Shown here piece after piece: positions 3,394 through 30,194 of a DNA stretch of 30,194 nucleotides. How positions within the stretch are numbered: the stretch's first letter is position 1; each line of letters starts with the position of its first letter. Origin of the DNA: a virus; the IMG/VR virus record IMGVR_UViG_3300037264_004389, positions 1 to 30,194 of that record. One strand, written 5' to 3'. Position numbers and translations under genes: made by a program. The notes beneath the pieces are model-generated. The model did not search any database. It was given only the letters and a program-made list of their open reading frames with translations, and was not told the DNA's origin.

Positions 3394-4656
3394 TTAAGAC
3401 GCCTGTAGGGTTAGGGATTCTCTGCGAGACTTCTTAAGGATTTTGTTTTCTTGCGGGGTTCTAGCAATACCGAGCTTGTAAATCCAACGTCTAATGTTAT
3501 TCTTGGATATTCCAAGCATCTTAGAAATATCTAAAACGGTTCTGCCAGATAAGTATAGTTCTTTTGCTTTGATTGCCTCCAGCTTATCCTCAGTTTGAGT
3601 ATATCTCTGTTTAGAGTCAGATATCTTTTCAATTACGATCCCTTTTTGTTTTTGAACAGTTCTAAGCATATTAAAAACCTGACCTACTTTTAGATTGAGT
3701 TCAACTCCAGTTTCTGATAGAGACAACCCAGACTCACATAAGAGAAAAACCTTTTGAGCTAATGCATCTCGCTTATCTAGAGAAAGCCGTTTACGAGGAT
3801 CTTTTTGAAGTGAATATTTACGAGCTGTACGGTTTACGTGAACCATAGAGGTCTTTAACTGCATTGCAATATCATAAGAGCTAAGATCCTTCTGAGTTTC
3901 TAAGAGGTTCTTAATGGTTAATTCTAGTTCTGAAGTCAATGGTTTTTTTCTACGAGACTCATAAACACCCAAAGTTAGTAACCACTGAGTTACAACAGCG
4001 TGTGTAACGTCTAGTTTAGTTGCAATTTCAGTAATATACCCGCCAGCCTGAAATAGCTGCGCAGCTTCGAGGGCTTTGGGGTTATTACTAATAAGCTGAT
4101 CCTTTTTTTGTTCCCAAGAAATATGATCTTGAGGTCTCTTAATACCTCTTGTCCACGATCTAATTTTAGATAAATAAATATTAAACTCAGAAGCCAACTC
4201 TTTTTGGGTCTTTCCAGCTAAAAATCCTTCAATAACTTGTTCCTTTACTCCAGAAAAAGATACAACAAGATCTGCTATATCGTGTTCTTTAGCTCGTCTA
4301 ATTATTTGAGCAGCTTGTAAAGATCTTGAACATCCAAGACGCCGCAACCAATAACCAATTGTTGACCCTTTAACACCAAGCTTTTGAGAAATTTCATTTG
4401 TAGAGAGCCCCTGTTCATATAACACTTTGGCTTCTTGAGCATCTTTACGGTTAAAAACCCCGTCCACTCTTCGTGTTCCTGCGATAGTAATAGCTTGAGA
4501 TCTACTTCTCTTTAACCCCAAGTTTTTAAGCCACCAACTAATATAAGGGGGATAAACACTAATAACCTTAGCAATCTCAGACTGGCTCATCCCTGATTCA
4601 TACAATGAAACAGCTTTTTTCATATCATCTGGGATAGGAATTTGAGATATATCCAT
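3394..4656 (-). CDS. Tandem helix-turn-helix array protein (seven HTH units)
   Basis: The 420-residue protein is built almost wholly from repeated HTH units at about residues 14-47, 75-108, 138-171, 197-230, 247-282, 300-335 and 363-396. Units are spaced 50-63 residues apart. The clearest units (1, 2, 4, 7) share the pattern A-x-LY-x-x-G-x-S-x-x-EI-(A/S)-x-x-(L/I)-x-V, a turn, then I-x-x-WL-x-x-LG and a basic tail. Units 3, 5 and 6 are degenerate. The linkers are rich in Lys/Arg, as expected for DNA binding. No nuclease or recombinase motif is visible. The gene lies between two tail genes, 14 bases after the upstream stop, with no clear SD, so it may be poorly expressed or a late insertion. 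It could be a transcription regulator, a DNA-organising protein, or the DNA-binding half of a decayed homing element. Confidence 0.75.
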   Translation of the reverse strand: MDISQIPIPDDMKKAVSLYESGMSQSEIAKVISVYPPYISWWLKNLGLKRSRSQAITIAGTRRVDGVFNRKDAQEAKVLYEQGLSTNEISQKLGVKGSTIGYWLRRLGCSRSLQAAQIIRRAKEHDIADLVVSFSGVKEQVIEGFLAGKTQKELASEFNIYLSKIRSWTRGIKRPQDHISWEQKKDQLISNNPKALEAAQLFQAGGYITEIATKLDVTHAVVTQWLLTLGVYESRRKKPLTSELELTIKNLLETQKDLSSYDIAMQLKTSMVHVNRTARKYSLQKDPRKRLSLDKRDALAQKVFLLCESGLSLSETGVELNLKVGQVFNMLRTVQKQKGIVIEKISDSKQRYTQTEDKLEAIKAKELYLSGRTVLDISKMLGISKNNIRRWIYKLGIARTPQENKILKKSRRESLTLQAS

Positions 4657-8003: not shown

Positions 8004-8642
8004 CTAATCATCAAGAGAATATGTAACCGTTACTGTGGCCGAGGTAAGCCCTACGGTATCTCCAGCCGAGCTACTCAATTCCAGATCCAGAGTATCATTG
8101 TAATCCCATGCATTACCAAAGCCGTCCGCAAAGGTAATACCACTCACATCAAATGTAATTGTGACCCCATCAACATCCGCATGATCAAATAACGCGGAAG
8201 TTTGGTTTGCATTGTTTCGTTTGAATCGGTAATTGATATCTTTACCTGTATCTGGAGCAGCATTAAGCACACTCTTCAAAGAGAGTATGTGGATAGGTCT
8301 TCCAAAAACAAGATCGTTCCAGAACACTTGTGTTACTGAAATGGGTGCTCCAGTCTTTGTGACAACCACAGTTCTTTCAAGATCCTCATCTACACTCAAA
8401 ATCTGCAGTTTTCCCACAGTAACAAGGGTGGATATTTCCCCATCAACTGCTGATTTCTTAACAGCTCCCGTCTCAACTAGTTGTATAGCTAAAGTCGTAT
8501 CCGGTGCGTCATTAACGTCCAATCCTGTTGGGATGTACCGAGCTTGATTCTGTTTCCGCCCGTAGGGACCACCATTCCGGTCATTTCCAATATCCCCGAT
8601 AAAGATAGAATCTTTATTAGGGTCAATATTCAAGAGTTTCAT
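8004..8642 (-). CDS. Structural protein, short paralogue of the 8724-10049 product
   Basis: The 212-residue protein aligns with the N-terminal and C-terminal thirds of its upstream neighbour. Shared features are the start MK(I/L)LNIDP, then FIGDIGN, R(R/K)QNQARYIP(S/T)GL, LAIQ(F/L)VET-AV, and DDYVFGRP or NDLVFGRP. It lacks the Ig-like middle of the paralogue. The C-terminal 60 residues look like a beta domain (DTLDLELSSSAGDT, then VTVTYSLDD). AGAGG lies six bases before the ATG. The leader upstream of this gene is conserved with that of the paralogue. A strong terminator follows it. It probably forms part of the virion surface or a fibre; the precise role is unknown. Confidence 0.6.
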   Translation of the reverse strand: MKLLNIDPNKDSIFIGDIGNDRNGGPYGRKQNQARYIPTGLDVNDAPDTTLAIQLVETGAVKKSAVDGEISTLVTVGKLQILSVDEDLERTVVVTKTGAPISVTQVFWNDLVFGRPIHILSLKSVLNAAPDTGKDINYRFKRNNANQTSALFDHADVDGVTITFDVSGITFADGFGNAWDYNDTLDLELSSSAGDTVGLTSATVTVTYSLDD

Positions 8643-8723: not shown

Positions 8724-10049
8724 TTAATCTACAAATTCGTAATACACTTTAACTGTAACGGACCCAATCCCAGTTGTATCCGTGCTTAAACCAAATAAAA
8801 CATCCATTTCATCATCTTGATCCAGCTGATTTGTACCCGGAGCTGCAGCATAAGCCATCGCAGATGTGTCAAAGGTTTTATCCCCACTATCTGATTGTGT
8901 ATACCTGTAAAAACTTTGAGTAGTATTGGCTGAGGGGGCGTCCGCTCCTAAGCCGCCATCTGCTGTGTTATCGGTATAAACCGTAGTTATATTGTCAGAA
9001 ATAGTGGTGAGTAACTTATGAGCACCAGTATTCCCAGCTACTGTTCTGTATACTTTACGTGCTGTAACGATCCCTGAGGTTCCCGTAGGGATCACAGAAA
9101 GAGCAACCTTTGAATCATCCGCAGCTGGCATATTCGCACCCAATGAACCATCAGCAATGTTATCTTCATAGGTAGTTGTCGTATTGTCTGCGATTGTGGC
9201 AACTAATTTGTAGTTCCCAGTATCCCCAGCTATCGTTCTGTATACTTTACGTGCCGTGGTGCCTGTAGCCCCTAAGGGAATTACAGTTAATGCAACTTTA
9301 CCATTTGTAGTTTTATCTACAACATTTAGTACGTTAGAAACTGCAGAACCGGTTGTTTCCCCACCCGCATGTACAAAAGTAATTTTCCATGAATGGGTTC
9401 CGTCGTCTACGTTACCTGCGCCAGCCCCGGCTAAAGCTGCTGTTGCTGCAGATCCAGAAGCTACAATAACATTGACTATAGCTGAGACGGTTCCTGCTTC
9501 TGTTTCGCCAAGAGCGGTTACTAACGTTACTTTATAACTATGAGTGCCGGGTGTGACACTGCCAGCTCCTGCTGCGGCTAATGCAACGGTAGGGGCCGCT
9601 GGGGCGGTTGTACTTATTTGTACAGTGTTATTCTTTTTGTAAATAACATCAACAACTTTACTTGCTCCCGGTGGAACATTGGGTGTGACTATTAGTCTTG
9701 TTAAAAGAATTGGACGACCAAAAACATAATCATCAAAAAACACCTGAGAGTTTGTTGGGGCAAGTATGGTCTTTGTTAAGACGTGCTCATAGTTTTCACC
9801 AGCGCTTACTACCTGCACAAAGCCCTGTGCAATAAATGCGGCAATCTCCCCACTAGCTGCTGATTTCAACACAGCATCCGTTTCAACAAACTGTATCGCT
9901 AGAGCAGGATCTGGCGTACCACTAACCAATCCGGATGGGATATATCTAGCTTGGTTCTGTCGCCTTCCCACAGTTCCTTTGTTTCTTTGATTTCCAATAT
10001 CCCCAATAAAATGGGATTCTCCAGATGGATCGATATTTAAGATTTTCAT
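8724..10049 (-). CDS. Structural protein with inserted Ig-like repeats
   Basis: I place the start at the ATG at 10049, which has GAGGG seven bases upstream and gives MKILNIDP, matching the paralogue; this gives 441 residues. Residues 1-144 match the paralogue at 8004-8642, as does the last segment (about 381-441). In between sits an insertion of roughly 235 residues containing Ig/FN3-like units: two starts of the GTHSYK or GTHSWK type and two ARKVYRT(I/V)AG-TG ends. One such module is shared with the protein at 6934-7872. Probably a displayed virion protein whose insert supplies surface-binding domains. Structural role inferred. Confidence 0.65.
   Translation of the reverse strand: MKILNIDPSGESHFIGDIGNQRNKGTVGRRQNQARYIPSGLVSGTPDPALAIQFVETDAVLKSAASGEIAAFIAQGFVQVVSAGENYEHVLTKTILAPTNSQVFFDDYVFGRPILLTRLIVTPNVPPGASKVVDVIYKKNNTVQISTTAPAAPTVALAAAGAGSVTPGTHSYKVTLVTALGETEAGTVSAIVNVIVASGSAATAALAGAGAGNVDDGTHSWKITFVHAGGETTGSAVSNVLNVVDKTTNGKVALTVIPLGATGTTARKVYRTIAGDTGNYKLVATIADNTTTTYEDNIADGSLGANMPAADDSKVALSVIPTGTSGIVTARKVYRTVAGNTGAHKLLTTISDNITTVYTDNTADGGLGADAPSANTTQSFYRYTQSDSGDKTFDTSAMAYAAAPGTNQLDQDDEMDVLFGLSTDTTGIGSVTVKVYYEFVD
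9372..9443. repeat. 72-bp perfect repeat, copy 2
   Basis: Identical to 7540-7611; it encodes the same part of the Ig-like module in the 441-residue structural protein. The bases just outside differ (9371 and 9444), so the match has sharp borders. Confidence 0.9.
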
Positions 10050-10074
10050 ATATACACCCTCTTTGAGGAGGCTA

Positions 10075-10112
10075 GAAGCCCGTTGAGTACCAGCCAACAA
10101 TGGTTCCGGTGG
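10075..10112 (-). promoter_or_regulatory. Conserved 5' leader element, copy A
   Basis: Blocks of 21 and 11 bases identical to those at 8666-8704 lie 26 bases upstream of the ATG at 10049. The spacer between the blocks differs in length (6 versus 7) and sequence. The rest of the 115-base gap 10050-10164 holds the ribosome binding site and AT-rich sequence (GTATAAG, TATAGT) without a clear promoter. The pair of copies flanks the 441-residue gene as direct repeats. Confidence 0.6.
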
Positions 10113-18505: not shown

Positions 18506-19312
18506 ATTGCCCTCCCTATGCGGATTAAACTCGTGTTCCCAAGTTTGAACTTCCCAACAAGATTCACATATAGGTTTAAACCGACTATCTACACGATTCT
18601 GTCTACAAACCTCACACAACTGTGTCTCTGTTACGGGTTTAGGATTTTTAATATGTCTGAAAACACGAAATCGGTCATGGATTTGACGATCAGGGATCAC
18701 AGTACGACGGAATGGGAAAACAGGCTGCATTCTAGGATTCACTTTATCCCCCACATGGGCCTTACTAAGGTCCCAGTAAACGTTATGGGATGTCTCGTCT
18801 AACCACGCATCGGCAGAATCGGTGTTAAACCTGTCTATGCGATGTTCCGTAGTCATAGAGTCATTTAGAGGGTATGGCGACGGAATAAAAGGATGGGGGC
18901 CATACTCATCGCGTAAGTATTTATGAGGTCTATCCCCATACCAGTCGGGAGTTTCTGGTTTTACAGGAGTTGGATACGTATCATAATTTTGCGATGGGTG
19001 CTTGGGTAAATCAGCTGGCTCTTGAAAATCAAGATCTCTACTTATCTGGATTTTCCGTTTACGCAAATCGTGCCGTGGAGCTCCTCTAGGCGGCTCTCTG
19101 TATATTAGGTCTTGAACGGCACTATCCTCTTTTTTCTTCTGTCTAGAAATTTCTTCCGGGGTTTTAACAGGCTCGTTTTTATCTTTAGTGTTGTCCACGT
19201 CGCTCCACCTTAAATACACATTTGGATAATTCTCTCTTTTATCAATCTCTTCCAAGTTAGAACTAGGTATAGGAAAAGTATTTGTAGGTTTAAGACGCTT
19301 TGTTTTAGCCAA
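18170..19312 (-). CDS. Unrecognised zinc-ribbon protein downstream of the portal
   Basis: The 380-residue protein starts with a long Pro/Asp/Arg/Tyr-rich, probably disordered region (1-225), then a zinc ribbon at 233-252 (CEVC...CESC), then a helical C-terminus that starts at an internal ATG with a strong SD. A further CEDC pair (about residue 348) may form another metal site. The start is TTG, overlapping the end of the portal gene by eight bases, with AGGTG seven bases before it. The C-terminal part carries two helical-hairpin units of the L-x-x-A-x-x-V-Q...DKV type. Role unknown; the location suggests head assembly. Confidence 0.5.
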   Translation of the reverse strand: MAKTKRLKPTNTFPIPSSNLEEIDKRENYPNVYLRWSDVDNTKDKNEPVKTPEEISRQKKKEDSAVQDLIYREPPRGAPRHDLRKRKIQISRDLDFQEPADLPKHPSQNYDTYPTPVKPETPDWYGDRPHKYLRDEYGPHPFIPSPYPLNDSMTTEHRIDRFNTDSADAWLDETSHNVYWDLSKAHVGDKVNPRMQPVFPFRRTVIPDRQIHDRFRVFRHIKNPKPVTETQLCEVCRQNRVDSRFKPICESCWEVQTWEHEFNPHREGNMKARRVCVAYLDYAADLVQDEYPNVAYNVDKVTDQIEAEGDMRGWIPILETASGIVEAEFPLASAKIDAVANTLECEDCGFGSNPLRTRRDYGVGKRQRVSNWVKMLEVSR

Positions 19313-22300
19313 GTTTCTTCACCTTACTAGCCCCACGAACTATCGGAGTTCGCAGAGGGGGTTGCCGCTTCTTTATAGGTTGTTCCGCTGCTGGAGGTGA
19401 AATAACCATGGGGGTCCTCATAGGGATAGGAGCTGGTGGGGGTTGGTATTTCGGGGCTTCTACTAGAGGAGAACGAGCAGGAGGGGGGATCTCCTGCTCA
19501 AAGGGGATAGTAGTGGTAGGTTCTCCTCCAAATTCAGGACCAGCCTCAAACTCTTCTGTGCCCGACTCAAAACCCGGGCCTTCTCCACCCTCTTCCGGCA
19601 CCTCAGGAGCTTTAGGAGTAAACTTGAGTCCGAGTTTAGCTGCTAATTTCTGCAAAATATCTGACTGCTCAACAAGTGCTTGTGCCGCTTGAGAGAAGAG
19701 GTTCCGCTTTAATTCGCCCATATCAGGGTCAAATACAGAGAACAAATCCTCTTCTACGCTAACCTTTGCGTCCTCAGGATCAATGTTTAACAGATCCAAC
19801 AGTGGTCTAATAGATATACTGCCTTTTTGAAAGAGATTGAACATATCCGCGAATTGATCAGCGTAATCGCGCAGAGACAAGCGTGAAAAACGTACCCTAG
19901 GGTACAACAGGATCTTATGCCCGAATTCATCTACACCCCAAAAATTATTTCGTTTAGCTATAGGCTTGAATACGCCATTTTCTATAAATAGCTTTAGTTC
20001 TTCACGGTAAAGACTGTATACCGTATTCATAACCTCTAGTGAAACACGCTCGCCAGTATATGTACCTTCCCCCGTGAGCAGTGCTCTAGGTAATCCTAAA
20101 CCAATTAGAATCAGGTTCTCTGTGTATTCCATTTCTCCTTGAATATCGAGCAGTCGCTCACGAGCACCAATTTCCTGCCACTCTATTGGGTAGTTTACTA
20201 GTATCGTGAAATCAGGATCGGCAAGAGCCATATCAACCTGTTGTCGCAATTGTTCTAGTGTTGTCTCATCCGCTAACTCCGCTACAATAACCCTTTTAGG
20301 GGTCATGTTTCGGGTCGCGATTTGTGTCTGCGCCTGCCTTAATTTGTCACGAAAAAGGATGCTCCTAAGACAATTAAAAGTACGTATATTATTGATAAAA
20401 AAGGACTTATCGTCATTTACAGAAAAACTGTACACCAAACCAGAATAATTACCGCTTTCCACAACTTTAACTTTGTAGTAGAGTTCCTCGTTGTGTACTA
20501 GATGCCGTCTACCGGAATTCCACCGTTTACTGGGTTCTTGCTTAAGAATTCGATTCTTAGAGATAAATCCGTGTCTAAAGAATCTTCTGATGTGGACCCT
20601 ATCAGAGAAAGAAACGTTGTATAGGGACTTGCATTTCTCTTGAATAGTTCCTTGAGGCTGTCTTACGTTCTTAGGATAAGATACGTTAACAGAAACCGGA
20701 ATACCTAACGAGGTGCAGAGCAGAAAAATATTGTCAATTACAATTCTATTTGTATTCCAGAATCTAACAGATATAGTTGGTCTATTTTTCTTTTTTGTGA
20801 TATCTCCATCAGAATCTAAAAATCCCCGCAGTACTCCGTAAATAAAATCTTTTGGCGCATCAAAAATCCATTCTGGTAAATGTTTGTCATCACAATTATT
20901 CCCAAAATTATTAGATACCCATCTTGAAAATAAATCATGTCTTTTATGAACTACGATATGCACCATTGAGTTATCTGTAGTTACTTCGGAATAACTAAAC
21001 CTATATTTTCGTAGAAGTATCTCTTTGAGCTTTCGAGCAGATCTAACAGCAGTAGGGACTTTTGTGGAGTAACAAATTGAAAGAGACTTATGTTCAGAAG
21101 AAGCGGTCCACCCATCCCCAAGATAATATCCAATCAAATACCCTAAATTACCGTCTAAATTAAGATATCTACGCGAGCGTTTAATGGGACTGTTTGTTTT
21201 AACGTGTGTACTTCTTGAAACCTTGGAATCCAAATCAGGAAAAAATTTTCTGTGCGCTAGACTTTTACCATAATTAAATACAGGCTCATACGATAAGATC
21301 TCCTGTCTACATCTATGGTATTGAACTAAAATATCTTTTTCCGTCCGATCAATAACCTTAGTTTCTATTACCCTGTTCCCAAACCTTACACTTTTAAAGT
21401 TTTTATTGTCGTAGTATTCAGCTAGATCCACCCTATCCAAACTCTCTGTGAGCTTTCTCTGAGCCACTTTGATATAATCCCCGTCGGCAATATCTCTGGC
21501 CTCCACTCTAACGAGTTCCCCATTCCGTAACACTTCATGATCGTGATCAGCGGTACACCAACTAGTTTCTGGTAACTTCCACACAGAGATCCCACAAATA
21601 GGTTCATTCTCTACATATCTCGATCCCGCTTGAAACGACTGAAAATTGCCAGCACCTGACAGGATAAGATCTGTATTGGGATCTAGGTCCTCAATATTCA
21701 CCGTGGCCATAGCATCATCACGTTTTACATAAACAGCTTGGCCCGGCAAATGACACCGTTCTATGATGCTAGAACCCTCATCGGCATAGGGACTGCGTTT
21801 ACGAGCTAAATGGTAAACATATGATCCCTCTTCAGGATCTGTTTCAAATACTAAATTCTTACCCTGCTCTATAGCATCTAATACTTCCTGTGGAACACCC
21901 TCTTTCAAATCGTCTGTATACTCAGACTTTTCTCCAGAACTAGCTAGCATTCCCCCAAATCCGGGATCTGGCATCATCTCGATCCGCACTTTATCAGAGT
22001 AAGGAATACCTTTTACTTCAACAAAGTCAGGGTTCAAAATTACTATACGGTTCCATTTCTTAGTCCCTTCATTGTATTCTAAATATGCAAAACAATTCCC
22101 AAAAAGCCAGAATTCGTGTGAAATAGAAAGTAGATTCCGAAACAGATTTATATCTTCAGCCATCTCCTCAAAGAAATGAAGAACATATTTATTTAATTTC
22201 TGATCTTGCCCTTTTGGTTCCATATAGATCAATTTGGATAGCGGGATATCAGTATGGATATCAATAGCACGGCCTATAAGGGGATCTGCTTTGTAAAATA

Positions 22301-22571
22301 GTCTGTACCATGTATGTTTCTCTGCCCTCGTCATAGGCAGTTCTAAGAAATCTTTGGATAATACAGGATGGTAAAACGCAGTCTCCTGCGACTCGCGCAC
22401 ATTACCACCCCCAAACGTAGAGGAATTAATTGTGGGAAAAGAGGTCAGTGCGGTTCTATGCTTAACAGCAACCCTTTTACGAGCCTCAAGAACGTAGTCT
22501 CTTGGCTTAGCTTGAACTGTATTAATCTTTGGACTATTTTTCTTTTTCAATCTTAATCTCCTACCGGCCAC
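19305..22571 (-). CDS. Portal protein precursor containing an intein
   Basis: The precursor is 1088 residues. The exteins (1-272 and 734-1088) join to about 627 residues resembling portal proteins: an N-terminal region with YHPVLSKDFLELP and a clip/stem area with RAIDIHTDIPLSKL; at the junction SSIIER + CLRSILFRDKLRQAQ; then LIGLGLPRALLTGEGTYTG and RDYADQFADMFNLFQKGSIS, and a Pro/Glu-rich tail. Portals form the dodecameric ring through which DNA enters the head; the gene follows the large terminase, as usual. The annotated GTG start overlaps the terminase end by eleven bases but has no SD; a TTG at 22550 (residue 8) has AGGAG seven bases upstream and may be the real start. Excision of the intein is required for a working portal. 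Confidence 0.8.
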   Translation of the reverse strand: MAGRRLRLKKKNSPKINTVQAKPRDYVLEARKRVAVKHRTALTSFPTINSSTFGGGNVRESQETAFYHPVLSKDFLELPMTRAEKHTWYRLFYKADPLIGRAIDIHTDIPLSKLIYMEPKGQDQKLNKYVLHFFEEMAEDINLFRNLLSISHEFWLFGNCFAYLEYNEGTKKWNRIVILNPDFVEVKGIPYSDKVRIEMMPDPGFGGMLASSGEKSEYTDDLKEGVPQEVLDAIEQGKNLVFETDPEEGSYVYHLARKRSPYADEGSSIIERCHLPGQAVYVKRDDAMATVNIEDLDPNTDLILSGAGNFQSFQAGSRYVENEPICGISVWKLPETSWCTADHDHEVLRNGELVRVEARDIADGDYIKVAQRKLTESLDRVDLAEYYDNKNFKSVRFGNRVIETKVIDRTEKDILVQYHRCRQEILSYEPVFNYGKSLAHRKFFPDLDSKVSRSTHVKTNSPIKRSRRYLNLDGNLGYLIGYYLGDGWTASSEHKSLSICYSTKVPTAVRSARKLKEILLRKYRFSYSEVTTDNSMVHIVVHKRHDLFSRWVSNNFGNNCDDKHLPEWIFDAPKDFIYGVLRGFLDSDGDITKKKNRPTISVRFWNTNRIVIDNIFLLCTSLGIPVSVNVSYPKNVRQPQGTIQEKCKSLYNVSFSDRVHIRRFFRHGFISKNRILKQEPSKRWNSGRRHLVHNEELYYKVKVVESGNYSGLVYSFSVNDDKSFFINNIRTFNCLRSILFRDKLRQAQTQIATRNMTPKRVIVAELADETTLEQLRQQVDMALADPDFTILVNYPIEWQEIGARERLLDIQGEMEYTENLILIGLGLPRALLTGEGTYTGERVSLEVMNTVYSLYREELKLFIENGVFKPIAKRNNFWGVDEFGHKILLYPRVRFSRLSLRDYADQFADMFNLFQKGSISIRPLLDLLNIDPEDAKVSVEEDLFSVFDPDMGELKRNLFSQAAQALVEQSDILQKLAAKLGLKFTPKAPEVPEEGGEGPGFESGTEEFEAGPEFGGEPTTTIPFEQEIPPPARSPLVEAPKYQPPPAPIPMRTPMVISPPAAEQPIKKRQPPLRTPIVRGASKVKKLG
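20373..21755 (-). other. Intein with LAGLIDADG homing endonuclease, in the portal gene
   Basis: Residues 273-733 of the precursor (461 residues) form an intein. Block A is CHLPGQAVYV with Cys273 as the first nucleophile; block B is TADHDHEVL (Thr340, His343). The endonuclease shows both DOD motifs, LIGYYLGDG (479-487) and LRGFLDSDG (581-589), with likely catalytic Asp486 and Asp588. Blocks F and G are VYSFSVNDDKSFFINN and then RTFN followed by Cys734 as the first extein residue. The usual penultimate histidine is replaced by Phe732. The insertion point is a conserved part of the portal, as expected for a homing element. Splicing should be possible because the reactive Cys, Asn733 and Cys734 are present. 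Confidence 0.85.
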
Positions 22572-24447
22572 GCATCATACGACTAGCTCTAATCTGCATA
22601 TATTGCTTTTTGAACTGTTGGTTTCTCAATAGCGCTTGATAATGCCTGCTAGCTCCCGATTCAATGGGGGTACTTCTAGTTGATTTAGATACTACTAATC
22701 CGCCTTTTGTTGAAACTATAGAGACAGGGTTCTGCACAGTTGGGCTTGTACCAAGATACTTATAAAGACCCCCCTTTACCGCCCAGCAAGCTCTAGCAAG
22801 TGCGTAAGAAAAATCATCGTGTTTTCCCACCATTGTTGGGGCACGTACTACTTTATATTTTGCGCCTTCACGCTTCTGAAGCTCTAACAATTCCTGTAGT
22901 AGTACATGATTTTCGTAAGGCTCAAACCTAGTCTCCACAATAAGAGAGTACAAGACACTAAAAACTTCATCATTAAGTCTATCTGTGAAATTGATAAAGC
23001 TAAACTGCTTTAACCCCTCTTTTACTAGCTCATCTTCTAGAGGCCCCGCACAGTATTGATCAAACACCCCACCTACTATTCTGAATGCACTGCATAGATT
23101 TTTGATAACTGGGACTACGTGTTTAGTCATCTGGAGCCGGTCTACGTCCTCATAAGGGATAACTCCGGGGTATTGCACCATCCCATAATCTAGTACCACA
23201 TTATCTGTAACAGGATCGGCGTGTACAATTACATGCGCAGTACCATCGTTAGAAAGACCGAGGTCGTTACCATAAAAATACCGAATTGAGATCTTACCTC
23301 TTGATTGCTCTACGCGCTCATTCTGTTTAGCAAGTTCTATACAATTTAAAAGGTATTCTTCTTTTGGTATAAAACCCTCAATACGTTCCGAGAACTCAGC
23401 TCCGAATTCGACCACGAATCGTTCAGAACCGTCACTGTTCCACCGTGTTCTTAAAAACTTTGAATTTATATTTGGATTTGCTATCCATGTTGGGATGTGG
23501 AGCATCAGAATACTTTCATCAGGTCCGTCATTAGGCCCCCCGCCTAGTGATCTTAGATACAATTCATATACCTTACCAGCCTTTGTTCTGGGGCTTGATA
23601 GGCTTAAAATCCTTCCATCGAGACCATAATCTCCTACAGAAGGAATCATAGCGTTATAGATCTGCTCATCTGATTGGTTCCCACCATTGTCTAAAAACCA
23701 CGCTAACTCATCAAAGGTAATCTTGATGTTACCGCCACCTCTAAGGGCTCTCGAGTTACACCCATGGGACCCGAGAATTACAGATGCGCGATTAGAACTC
23801 TTTTTAAAGTATTTGAGATCTGCTTCGGTTCTTAATTCAATTTCTGAGTTCTTTGGTTTATTAACTACGTATTGTTGAAAAAATGGAGTTTTTTCTATAT
23901 AAGATTTTACTACAGTAAAAAGTTTAGAGGCTTGTTTTCTAGTATTTGCGAGGTTTGTGAGATTGATAGTGTCTTCCCGAAGCAGACCATAGTACTCCAA
24001 AGGATCAAATTTCTTTAATAATTTATAGGTCTCATACGTTTCTGCCAACGACGCTATTGAGGTCTTGCACCCCCTTCTTCCGAAGATCATTAGGCCTTCC
24101 TGCCAGTCCCCTTGCGGAGCCTTTACATTACACCTGTTTTGATCTTTCAACCAGAGGAAGAAGTCATGTTCTGTGAGTGTAGCAGTAATTTCTTCTCTAA
24201 ATTTATCGGTTATCTCAATTGTTTTATATACGTTATCTAGAGGCAACCCATAATACATTTTTAACGAAAATTGCATTACGGGGAGTAAGCCAACCCCTAG
24301 TATTTCATTTACAAATGAGACGACACTCTTCTGAGAAGCACTATCGGATCTGAGTTGAGAAGCTAACTGACGGAGTTGGGATTGCTTTGTTTGAGCTGGT
24401 AAGAAGGTTTCATCTAACTGTTGTAGTGAAGAAACAGACATACTCAT
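22561..24447 (-). CDS. terL: Terminase large subunit
   Basis: The 628-residue protein has the two-domain layout of large terminases. The ATPase part has a Walker A-like motif FGRRGCKTS (residues 122-130, Lys128), a Walker B motif IKITFDELAW (Asp246, Glu247) and a coupling motif LSLSSPRT (282-288). The nuclease part has the RNase H-like acidic set: GNDLG (Asp395), VFDQY (Asp463) and HDDFSYA (Asp544/545). It cuts concatemeric DNA and pumps it into the prohead through the portal. The start ATG overlaps the TGA of the upstream gene by four bases. In Walker A the glycine before the lysine is Cys127, a variation comparable to the Ala in the GSAKS motif of phage SPP1. Confidence 0.92.
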   Translation of the reverse strand: MSMSVSSLQQLDETFLPAQTKQSQLRQLASQLRSDSASQKSVVSFVNEILGVGLLPVMQFSLKMYYGLPLDNVYKTIEITDKFREEITATLTEHDFFLWLKDQNRCNVKAPQGDWQEGLMIFGRRGCKTSIASLAETYETYKLLKKFDPLEYYGLLREDTINLTNLANTRKQASKLFTVVKSYIEKTPFFQQYVVNKPKNSEIELRTEADLKYFKKSSNRASVILGSHGCNSRALRGGGNIKITFDELAWFLDNGGNQSDEQIYNAMIPSVGDYGLDGRILSLSSPRTKAGKVYELYLRSLGGGPNDGPDESILMLHIPTWIANPNINSKFLRTRWNSDGSERFVVEFGAEFSERIEGFIPKEEYLLNCIELAKQNERVEQSRGKISIRYFYGNDLGLSNDGTAHVIVHADPVTDNVVLDYGMVQYPGVIPYEDVDRLQMTKHVVPVIKNLCSAFRIVGGVFDQYCAGPLEDELVKEGLKQFSFINFTDRLNDEVFSVLYSLIVETRFEPYENHVLLQELLELQKREGAKYKVVRAPTMVGKHDDFSYALARACWAVKGGLYKYLGTSPTVQNPVSIVSTKGGLVVSKSTRSTPIESGASRHYQALLRNQQFKKQYMQIRASRMMRGR

Positions 24448-27219: not shown

Positions 27220-27840
27220 TTACATACGCACAGAGTACTCAAGGCTTTCCATGAAATCTACGTCTTTGTAGTCTTTAGAGGCAAGAACACGCAAGATATT
27301 AAAATTCTCAGATATCTTTGTAAAGTATTCTACATACACCTTAAATCGAGGCTGGACATCTGCACTAGACTTCAGTAGCTCTATAGCCTTTAGGAATCTG
27401 TACCTGACCCTACCTTGGGAAAGCCCCGTAAGAACCCCTGTAACCGTTTGAGAGGATGATTTTGACATAAGACAGAGTAATTTAACTTGCTCTTCCGATA
27501 AAACTTTTAACAGATCGGTTTGCATTTCTTGAAAGTCAACAGGAGGAAGACTCAAAATAAATTGAAGCCTTTGGATTGTACGCTTAATCCGATAGGAAAC
27601 CCCACCTTGCGTGAGACCAAATAGGACTGCAATTTCTTCCTGACTTTTTTGAACAAAGAAATATAAATATAACAGGTCCCGCTCCATCTTTGGAAGTGTC
27701 TGAATCAGAGGTCTGAGTTCCTCAAATGAAATATTAAATCGCGGAGCAATGAAATCCTTAAGTGTTAGTGCATCTTCGTTAGAGTACATTGCGCATAACT
27801 CTTGGGGGTCTTTGTATTCGAGAAAAGGTTTTGTGTTCAA
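27220..27840 (-). CDS. Tandem sigma-region-4-like HTH protein
   Basis: This 206-residue protein has two units that resemble sigma-70 region 4. The first (about 42-95) contains LPKMERDLLYLYFF, then SQEEIAVLFGLTQGGVSYR and a helix KRTIQRLQF. The second (about 107-157) contains LSEEQVKLLCL, then SQTVTGVLTGLSQGRVRYR and a helix KAIELL. The two are clearly related, and both keep the G-L-(T/S)-Q-G turn. Sigma region 4 binds the -35 element; no region 2 is visible, so it is not a complete sigma factor. It might be a late-transcription co-activator. The TTG start has GAGG five bases upstream and lies 23 bases after the exonuclease stop. Confidence 0.65.
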   Translation of the reverse strand: MNTKPFLEYKDPQELCAMYSNEDALTLKDFIAPRFNISFEELRPLIQTLPKMERDLLYLYFFVQKSQEEIAVLFGLTQGGVSYRIKRTIQRLQFILSLPPVDFQEMQTDLLKVLSEEQVKLLCLMSKSSSQTVTGVLTGLSQGRVRYRFLKAIELLKSSADVQPRFKVYVEYFTKISENFNILRVLASKDYKDVDFMESLEYSVRM

Positions 27841-27863: not shown

Positions 27864-28736
27864 TTATCCTACCTTGAAAAATCCAGAGGTAAAATTGCTT
27901 TCTATATCTACAAGTTTTGGAATAAAGGATTTAAACTCTAAAGAACAAAATGATTCCCTAAGCTGCTCTCGATCAAAAGGACCGTATTGAACGTTATAAT
28001 CTATATCCTTTTTCAATTTAATCAGATCATAATTAAGTCGAATCTTTTCAGAGTATTTGGATAACCCTCTATCAAGTACATTTATATTGTCAGGAGTGGG
28101 AGCCGGGGATAACATAGACATAAAGGCAAACAAGTTCGCAGTTTTTTGTTTACCGTATCCGGGTACCCCTTTAAGATTGTCCGTGAGATCACCACAAATA
28201 GATTTATACAAAGGAATAGCGTTTGGAAAGACCAAAAACTTCCCCTTCACTTTTTCAGCATCCCAAGCTACGTCTACTCCATGTTTAAAGTCTGGGGAAA
28301 AAACAACAACACGAGAATCTATAAGTTGTAGCAGATCACTATCAGCAGAATAGATGTATGTAACATCAGATTGAAGCTCTTTTTCTATTAAAGAGGCTAT
28401 CACATCATCAGCCTCCTCTTTATCAGCCCAAACTTGAAATACCCCTAAGCACTGGAGTATATGACATAAGTTAGATATATCTAAAGAGATATTCTGCTTT
28501 TTACTAAGTCTATGACCTTTATAATCAGCGAACTTACGAACCTTCTCTTCCGGGTATCTGTCCCATACAATAAAAATATTATCTACTTTTGGGCTTAGTT
28601 GTTGCTTTAAACGGATAAGGGTGCGAAGGAATCCGTATGTTACACCGGTAGGAACGCCTTTAGACGTGCATAGATTTAGAGCAAACCCCGCTCTGTAAAC
28701 CAAATTCATACCATCAATTACTAAATTTATCTTCAT
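27864..28736 (-). CDS. Nested in-frame start for a free 5'-3' exonuclease (290 aa)
   Basis: The FEN half begins at an internal ATG at 28736 preceded by AGAGG five bases upstream. Translation from it would give a normal-sized single-domain phage exonuclease of 290 residues, MKINLVIDG..., next to the fusion protein. The site is moderately strong, and the position exactly at the domain border argues against chance. Confidence 0.45.
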   Translation of the reverse strand: MKINLVIDGMNLVYRAGFALNLCTSKGVPTGVTYGFLRTLIRLKQQLSPKVDNIFIVWDRYPEEKVRKFADYKGHRLSKKQNISLDISNLCHILQCLGVFQVWADKEEADDVIASLIEKELQSDVTYIYSADSDLLQLIDSRVVVFSPDFKHGVDVAWDAEKVKGKFLVFPNAIPLYKSICGDLTDNLKGVPGYGKQKTANLFAFMSMLSPAPTPDNINVLDRGLSKYSEKIRLNYDLIKLKKDIDYNVQYGPFDREQLRESFCSLEFKSFIPKLVDIESNFTSGFFKVG

Positions 28737-29246
28737 AGTATCCTCTGGAACTAAGGAGGAAGTCTCTATAACTTCCGCTATGGAAATGCTGTCAAGGCGG
28801 GCTTCCACATGGACATGTCCATTATTTTTTCCCACAACAACTGCGGGAATACCCCTATATTTCCCAAACTTAAACCGGACAAAATGCCCTAAACGTGGAA
28901 AGAACTCTTGTTCTTTTCGAAGGTTCCGGCAAATACTCTGAACCTCTTGCTCCGGTATTCTGACTAGATTTTTTGTCCCGTTTTGTCGCGTAAACAAAGG
29001 CCCAATAAAAAAGGGACTAGAGGAGATCCTGAAAATTCTACCGTCTTCTTTAGGACAGATAAAAACATAGCTACAAAAGGGAAAATCAGAAGTATCAGGT
29101 TCTGTGCAGTATTGTTTAGGGTGTATCGGGTGGGGGAAAAGAACAGGAACATCACCTAAATACTGAATAATAGTTGCTTTGATTCTGGCGTAAGGAATTG
29201 CCTCGCCTTCCTCAGACAGTTGTAGGATTGCCCACGCTGCCACCAT
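27864..29246 (-). CDS. NusG-like (NGN-KOW) domain fused to 5'-3' exonuclease (FEN)
   Basis: I take the ATG at 29246, which has GGAGG seven bases upstream, instead of the GTG at 29288; the product has 460 residues. Residues about 3-105 resemble the NGN domain of NusG (AAWAILQLS at the start, CSYVFICPKEDG, FFIGPL, EQEVQSI), and about 120-167 a KOW segment (GHFVRFKFGKYRGIPAVVVG). From 171 on it is a complete FEN nuclease: VIDGMN (Asp178), VWDRYPEEKVRKF (Asp229), EEADD (277-281), ADSD (302, 304) and GDLTDNLKGVPGYGKQKTA (Asp353, 356 and the helix-hairpin-helix). FEN enzymes remove RNA primers; NusG-like factors bind RNA polymerase. I know no established protein with this combination. Confidence 0.8.
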   Translation of the reverse strand: MVAAWAILQLSEEGEAIPYARIKATIIQYLGDVPVLFPHPIHPKQYCTEPDTSDFPFCSYVFICPKEDGRIFRISSSPFFIGPLFTRQNGTKNLVRIPEQEVQSICRNLRKEQEFFPRLGHFVRFKFGKYRGIPAVVVGKNNGHVHVEARLDSISIAEVIETSSLVPEDTMKINLVIDGMNLVYRAGFALNLCTSKGVPTGVTYGFLRTLIRLKQQLSPKVDNIFIVWDRYPEEKVRKFADYKGHRLSKKQNISLDISNLCHILQCLGVFQVWADKEEADDVIASLIEKELQSDVTYIYSADSDLLQLIDSRVVVFSPDFKHGVDVAWDAEKVKGKFLVFPNAIPLYKSICGDLTDNLKGVPGYGKQKTANLFAFMSMLSPAPTPDNINVLDRGLSKYSEKIRLNYDLIKLKKDIDYNVQYGPFDREQLRESFCSLEFKSFIPKLVDIESNFTSGFFKVG

Positions 29247-29322
29247 CAAAAAGCCTCCAGAAAAACATGTGAATCCATCCGCCCCCACAAGAGGAACGGT
29301 ATTCCCGCCAATTTACGATAAA

Positions 29323-30194
29323 TCACCCAAGCTTTTTAAGAATTTTCCCGCCGAGCCCGGAAACAAATTCTTCTATAGATTTGTGAATTTCAACTGGTAT
29401 AACTGGAAATTTTTTAGTTTCGGTAATTTGAGTTGGTTTTGGGATTTGTTTTTCTGGTACTTTAATTGGCTTTTCGTCAGAGTATATCTTAACGGCCCGC
29501 TGTTCTAAAATTTGGTGAAACTTGTCGTCAGCAGTGTCAATTTTTTGTGGAGCAGCTTTTAACCTTTTAGTAGTAAAATCGCCTATTCTAAGCTTAGCGG
29601 AGAGCAGTAGATAGTCACAGAGAACCTCATCAGCACTATCTCGCCGTGATCTAGATATATAGAAATCAAGAGCAGGGATGAGAAGATCCTGACCCCAGAA
29701 GTTAACAATCCTATCTGCTAGGACTTGTTCTTCGGCTATCTGGTACGTATCGATCCCCATCCTATACTTTTCAAGCTCCATTAGTATTTGAAAAAAAGTA
29801 AACGATACATCTTTTGGGGACTCTTGCTGCAGGATTGTTTCAAGAGTGGAGAATCCATACTTAACATCAACCTTCGCCTCAGCAAGAATCTCTAGTAATT
29901 TAATCTTGATGTCTAGTTTAAAGTATTGCTTTAGCTTAGTCAACCCTATTGTTTTAGAATCAGCAGCTAGCGCTTCGATTATGCGCAACGCAATAACAGG
30001 TTTACCTAGGGCATTACTAACAATCGGAGACAGGGTTTCTTCAGCGTAGGAAATCTGTTCTAGCGCTAGAGCCGTCTTAAGAAGTTCTACCATCTCTTTG
30101 TTAGAAACTAACTTAAAAGGTAATTCCATACAGAGCAGCCGGAATTCCGGTTCAAGTAAATTAGGAGATTCAGTAGTAGCAATGAAATAAGAAG
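29323..30194 (-). CDS. AAA+ ATPase, clamp-loader-like, C-terminal part (cut by right edge)
   Basis: A frame open to the right edge continues upstream of the first ATG (30129). Translating 30130-30194 adds SYFIATTESPNLLEPEFRLL before that Met, which reads as the sensor-1 strand of an AAA+ ATPase (FIATTE) followed by the segment that holds the arginine finger in clamp loaders. Then MELPFKLVSNKEMVELL and YAEETLSPIVSNALGKPVIALRIIEAL match the lid (G-x-P-x-x-ALR). The remainder is helical, like the collar of clamp loaders, ending in a Lys/Pro-rich linker and a short helix. Walker motifs must lie outside the window. A replication clamp loader (DnaX/gp44-like) fits the next gene, a FEN; RuvB- or Rad17-like ATPases are alternatives. 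The ATG at 30129 is internal, not the start. Confidence 0.65.
   Translation of the reverse strand, partial: SYFIATTESPNLLEPEFRLLCMELPFKLVSNKEMVELLKTALALEQISYAEETLSPIVSNALGKPVIALRIIEALAADSKTIGLTKLKQYFKLDIKIKLLEILAEAKVDVKYGFSTLETILQQESPKDVSFTFFQILMELEKYRMGIDTYQIAEEQVLADRIVNFWGQDLLIPALDFYISRSRRDSADEVLCDYLLLSAKLRIGDFTTKRLKAAPQKIDTADDKFHQILEQRAVKIYSDEKPIKVPEKQIPKPTQITETKKFPVIPVEIHKSIEEFVSGLGGKILKKLG

Follow-up and report, generated by a model that had tools for sequence, protein, structure and literature searches.

The window (the whole stretch of DNA analysed here, 30,194 bases, an entire uncultured-virus record) encodes a 460-residue protein that almost certainly joins a phage NusG paralog to a flap/5′–3′ exonuclease (FEN). 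Residues 1–170 form an NGN–KOW half and residues 171–460 a FEN half; both domains come from known families, and the NGN–FEN combination was not found in the literature searched. The fusion is not unique to the window. The main genes of the window all lie on the minus strand, and those that bear on the fusion are as follows.

22561..24447, minus strand: terminase large subunit, named from homologues (no Pfam match) and used to find relatives.
27220..27840, minus strand: sigma-70 region 4 protein, the next gene downstream of the fusion (206 aa, TTG start; PF04545, E = 1.8e-11; same position in relatives).
27864..29246, minus strand: NGN–KOW–FEN fusion gene (460 aa from an ATG; the interval takes in the stop codon; identified from profile matches and AlphaFold2).
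27867..28736, minus strand: FEN/5′–3′ exonuclease domain, residues 171–460 (Pfam, Taq match, structure match, all nine acidic residues).
28742..28745, minus strand: GAGG inside the fusion gene, 5 nt ahead of an in-frame ATG (28736), a possible separate FEN start.
28743..28895, minus strand: KOW domain, residues about 118–168 (GxxVRFKFGKYRGIPAVV; alignment, Pfam matches of the family, AlphaFold2).
28905..29246, minus strand: NGN domain, residues 1 to about 114 (family profile, AlphaFold2).
29254..29258, minus strand: Shine–Dalgarno sequence GGAGG, 7 nt before the fusion ATG at 29246.
29323..30192, minus strand: DnaX/RFC-like clamp loader, C-terminal portion only, the next gene upstream, cut by the contig end (E = 9e-10 to the clamp loader of relative L029).

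Three further features were noted among the other genes of the window. Just downstream of the terminase gene, a 1088-residue reading frame (19305–22571, minus strand), probably that of the portal protein, contains an intein with a LAGLIDADG endonuclease. A 420-residue protein of several helix-turn-helix repeats (3394–4656, minus strand) is encoded among virion genes, and two neighbouring paralogs (8004–8642 and 8724–10100, minus strand) resemble each other at the N terminus (LNIDP...FIGDIGN); repeated domains are present in the larger one.

The fusion is read from one continuous frame of 460 codons, which runs from the ATG at 29246 to the stop codon ending at 27864 on the minus strand with no internal stops; the plus strand over the same interval is packed with stop codons. 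A preliminary description of this DNA had reported this frame, a strong Shine–Dalgarno sequence and two domains with their border, all of which are borne out here (GGAGG 7 nt upstream; NGN–KOW up to residue 170 and FEN from residue 171). Its coordinates hold as well; it had left the strand unstated, and it missed that the FEN may have a start of its own, that relatives are numerous and that the clamp loader/sigma neighbourhood is conserved. With regard to the possible internal start, the GAGG 5 nt upstream of the FEN ATG at 28736 is a Shine–Dalgarno-like site of a kind that precedes only 10 of the 119 internal ATGs in the genes of the window. Because this ATG is in frame and follows such a site, free FEN may also be made in the window besides the fusion. 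Inspection of the sequence in the frame one base over reveals a TGA exactly at the FEN ATG (ATGA).

The NGN–KOW half alone gave no credible match in Pfam or PHROGs, and chance resemblance therefore had to be excluded by means of a family profile. A weak match of this half to PNP_UDP_1 (E = 0.13) was rejected as noise. A leave-one-out profile built from 15 phage NusG-like relatives, with the window excluded, found the half at E = 1.5e-17, and the best of 2000 shuffled NGN–KOW controls reached E = 0.92 with the same profile. The NGN family profile of 16 sequences, in which the window is included, gave E = 1e-11 against Thermotoga NusG (2lq8, matched full length), E = 2e-11 against Aquifex NusG and E = 8e-5 against E. 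coli NusG. The members of this family are themselves recognized by the Pfam NusG model (13 of 16), the KOW model (12 of 16) and PHROG 6386, a transcription antiterminator (15 of 16); the NCBIfam models for nusG, LoaP, UpxY and RfaH gave them weak scores. Tyr60 and Phe62 are invariant in the 16 family sequences and lie inside a GYxFV-type RNA-polymerase contact motif. In an alignment to NusG, the GYxF motif places Phe62 at the position of RfaH Phe56, a residue that RfaH needs to bind RNA polymerase (PMC7593976).

AlphaFold2 gave an unusable model of the fusion from the single sequence (pLDDT only 31) and, when relatives were supplied (39 sequences), a model with a mean pLDDT of 88.1. In the latter, NGN-like strands and helices are followed by a five-strand KOW-like unit and then by the FEN. 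The match lists of a fold search with this model were filled by FENs, so that none was left for the NGN half. The leave-one-out match, the match of the family to 2lq8 and the order of strands and helices in the model together uphold the NGN–KOW identity first proposed for residues 1–170. As in NusG, RfaH, LoaP and UpxY, NGN is followed by KOW, the aromatic residues of the contact motif are present and the length is similar. Unlike these proteins, among which no known member with a nuclease domain was found, the N-terminal half of the fusion has its gene in huge phages, flanked by replication and sigma genes, and the copy in the window is too divergent for Pfam.

The FEN half is matched by PF02739 (5_3_exonuc_N) at E = 6.7e-30 and by PF01367, the C-terminal SAM-fold domain, at E = 2e-8, which in the full protein lies under the 40-bit cut-off of that model. 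It matches the 5′ nuclease of Taq polymerase at E = 4e-24, and its predicted structure superimposes on Mycobacterium FenA (6c33) with Z = 28.8 over 274 residues. The preliminary description had noted that all acidic residues of a 5′–3′ exonuclease are present; nine such residues (Asp178, Asp229, Glu278, Asp280, Asp281, Asp302, Asp304, Asp353, Asp356) are indeed found and are invariant over 15 relatives. These nine correspond to the metal-binding acids of T5 FEN. The Lys/Arg residues of the FEN arch are also present (Lys243, Arg246). In its whole-domain fold and its acidic residues the FEN half thus resembles M. smegmatis FenA, T5 D15, E. coli ExoIX/Xni, the Taq Pol I 5′ nuclease and T4 RNase H; unlike the FEN of the window, those enzymes work by themselves, on a clamp or as part of a DNA polymerase, not joined to a transcription factor.

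Scans of viral contigs with the single fusion, terminase or sigma protein found no relatives. Relatives were reached via the terminase, an alignment of three terminases opening the family, and 80 phage loci were surveyed; later scans used terminase, FEN and fusion alignments together with profile searches over all loci. An HMM search for NGN+FEN fusions in phage genomes had been proposed in the preliminary description, and searches of this type brought to light 21 distinct fusions besides that of the window (22 in total, on viral contigs of up to 529 kb). A further 24 distinct loci have neighbouring NGN and FEN genes, the FEN start lying mostly within 50 nt of the NGN stop. An adjoining NGN gene was found at none of 80 bacterial FEN loci, and at one of 69 further phage FEN loci, which is itself one of the 24 pairs. 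The two phages nearest to the window by terminase have no detectable FEN, and no record covering 80% of the fusion of L020 was present among 50,697 phages. The unfused FENs of two clades of pairs end in SLFD or D[FW]LxDI tails (L036, L077, L011, L032, L045 and L082; L058, L079, L160, L274, L277, L318 and others).

The genomic setting of the fusion also recurs. An order of clamp loader, NGN, FEN (where present) and sigma-70 region 4 fits the window and the 11 relatives sampled. Both flanking genes are named by Pfam in seven relatives (L019, L020, L022, L032, L036, L065, L077); in L029 Pfam identifies the sigma region 4 gene, and the clamp loader is recognized from its sequence; in L024 and L038 both flanks are recognized from the sequence only; and in L057 the sigma region 4 gene, named by Pfam, is the only flank that could be assigned. 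The clamp loader gene of L029, to which the partial gene of the window is related, lies directly upstream of the NGN gene. Additional genes are found upstream in three relatives, encoding a primase (L036, L077) or a beta clamp (L029). A scan of 13 large contigs for the C-terminal domain of the DNA polymerase III beta subunit found no clear sliding clamp, a clamp being seen only in L029. The NusG-like protein of L029 (5606–6382), encoded beside the clamp loader, sigma region 4 and beta-clamp genes, has a C-terminal extension. A search of the PADLOC defence families gave no match to the fusion or its two neighbours.

Wherever a relative has both genes, the FEN occupies one constant position, after NGN and before sigma, and no FEN lies between NGN and sigma in L019, L024, L029, L038, L057 and L065. 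From these six relatives, the FEN appears to be a later arrival that came into an older clamp loader–NGN–sigma unit. On the scale of whole contigs, four large NGN-only phages (L019, L028, L044, L057) have no PF02739 FEN, so NGN evidently works without FEN; in L006 and L010 an NGN-like gene (found with an iterated profile) and a FEN lie apart on the same contig, so the two need not be linked. On nine contigs with a fusion or a pair (159–529 kb, possibly incomplete), no PF02739 gene was found other than the fused or adjacent FEN, and ordinary primer removal is therefore also expected of it; the fused or paired FEN probably performs this function as well. All nine contigs encode a separate PolA-family polymerase. 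The PolA-family profile is split in two pieces in the L032 record; in the 485 kb L044 record it is split in three along a 1763-residue reading frame (426418–430125), probably by inteins.

The 21 other fusions all have a spacer of 112–198 residues between NGN–KOW and FEN, and the window, in which the spacer is nil, is the only spacer-free fusion found. The spacer-type fusions form one clade with support of 100/99 from which the window is excluded; the window branches elsewhere, on a long branch, in the NGN, FEN, combined and terminase trees. AU tests did not reject joining the window to the spacer clade (p = 0.33, 0.30, 0.25 and 0.09). The spacer-free fusion of the window may be a separate event, which the trees favour at a level short of significance. 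In close fused relatives (five comparisons, all with L059), dN is mostly 0.05–0.10 for NGN–KOW and 0.08–0.09 for FEN, compared with 0.26–0.36 for the spacer, whose rate of change is roughly three- to fivefold that of the two domains. Both halves are under strong purifying selection in these relatives. At the FEN start of the inspected spacer-type fusions there is no clear Shine–Dalgarno sequence, and several have no ATG there.

With regard to function, the chances seem about even that the NusG paralog tethers the phage 5′ nuclease to host RNA polymerase within a replication–transcription module. That the nuclease is carried to RNA polymerase is a reasonable inference from the recurrent neighbourhood and fusion, from the conservation of the motif that contacts RNA polymerase and from the purifying selection that acts on each half in relatives. 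In the manner of NusG and RfaH, the NGN domain would dock on the clamp helices of the β′ subunit of host RNA polymerase; none of 13 large contigs, which may be incomplete, yielded a gene for RNA polymerase beta. The linked FEN would then act on nearby 5′ ends, namely the RNA primers of the lagging strand and the flaps where the fork meets the polymerase, or alternatively on RNA–DNA hybrids behind the polymerase. Late transcription of replicating phage DNA would thereby be coupled to the removal of RNA and flaps, with some of the FEN of the window possibly also made alone from the internal ATG. Against tethering stand the NGN-only phages, the unlinked genes of L006 and L010 and the many relatives in which NGN and FEN stay separate genes. 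A more specific form of this proposal is put forward tentatively: the fusion may be a dedicated coupling protein in which the NusG paralog holds the only FEN of the phage on host RNA polymerase, the polymerase taking the role of a sliding clamp; primers, flaps or R-loops would then be cleared at the sites where transcription meets replication of the phage genome.

The main rival, which we consider somewhat unlikely, is that fusion merely ensures joint production: two proteins of one operon, an antiterminator and a nuclease for primer removal, would have become one polypeptide whose halves act separately. The NGN-only phages and the many separate pairs show that either half is sufficient by itself, the spacer evolves rapidly and the window keeps an internal FEN start backed by a Shine–Dalgarno sequence, all of which favour this reading. 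However, the spacer-type fusion has been retained over a diverse clade of 21 without a clear Shine–Dalgarno sequence at the inspected FEN starts, and the constant place of FEN between NGN and sigma argues in the same direction.

It is improbable that the tethering operates in reverse, with a FEN of the replisome bringing the elongation factor, and with it the neighbouring sigma and late transcription, to newly replicated DNA by analogy with the T4 sliding clamp. The clamp loader and sigma region 4 genes that flank the NGN–FEN unit and the beta clamp gene beside the L029 clamp loader would suit such an arrangement, and so would the hydrophobic/acidic tails of the separate FENs in two pair clades, which resemble clamp-binding peptides; a C-terminal segment of T4 gp55 has been described as clamp-binding (PMC2988020). 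However, NGN proteins exist in relatives without FEN, and the fused FENs, that of the window included, are without such tails, although their nearest unfused sisters (L266, L268, L272, L273) lack them too.

It is very improbable that a sequencing or assembly slip in the window joined what are really adjacent genes with an ATGA-type overlap: the TGA one base over at the FEN ATG, the similar distances between paired genes in relatives and the lack of a spacer in this fusion alone would fit such a slip, but NGN–KOW aligns in frame to its last strand, leaving few codons for a slip and no long homopolymers, and 21 other sequences independently carry a fusion.

Bacillus phage G gp582, annotated as a NusG-like antitermination factor and found with the NGN of a fused relative as query, is likewise an NGN–KOW protein of a jumbo phage; unlike the fusion it is free-standing, and the FEN of phage G (gp690) is encoded about 60 kb away. 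The T4 late-transcription module (gp45 sliding clamp, gp44/62 clamp loader, gp55 sigma, gp33 co-activator), in which clamp-loader and sigma genes are bound together, may be a plausible working parallel; it differs in that the fused proteins are without a clamp-binding C-terminal tail and a NusG-like factor is present instead. No description of an NGN–FEN architecture was found in the papers, NusG reviews and phage records searched (subscription journals lay mostly outside this scope), which agrees with the earlier statement that no protein of this design was known. Searches for NusG in jumbo or huge phages found no paper, and those combining NusG, flap endonuclease and fusion retrieved only origin-of-life papers.

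The fusion suggests that huge bacterial viruses may physically link transcription to the replication of their genomes. A FEN that is conserved in these phages as a fusion or a gene pair with NGN would provide a direct and testable link between transcription elongation and either lagging-strand processing or R-loop removal, and the NGN–FEN locus points to a module of replication-coupled transcription that may differ from that of T4.
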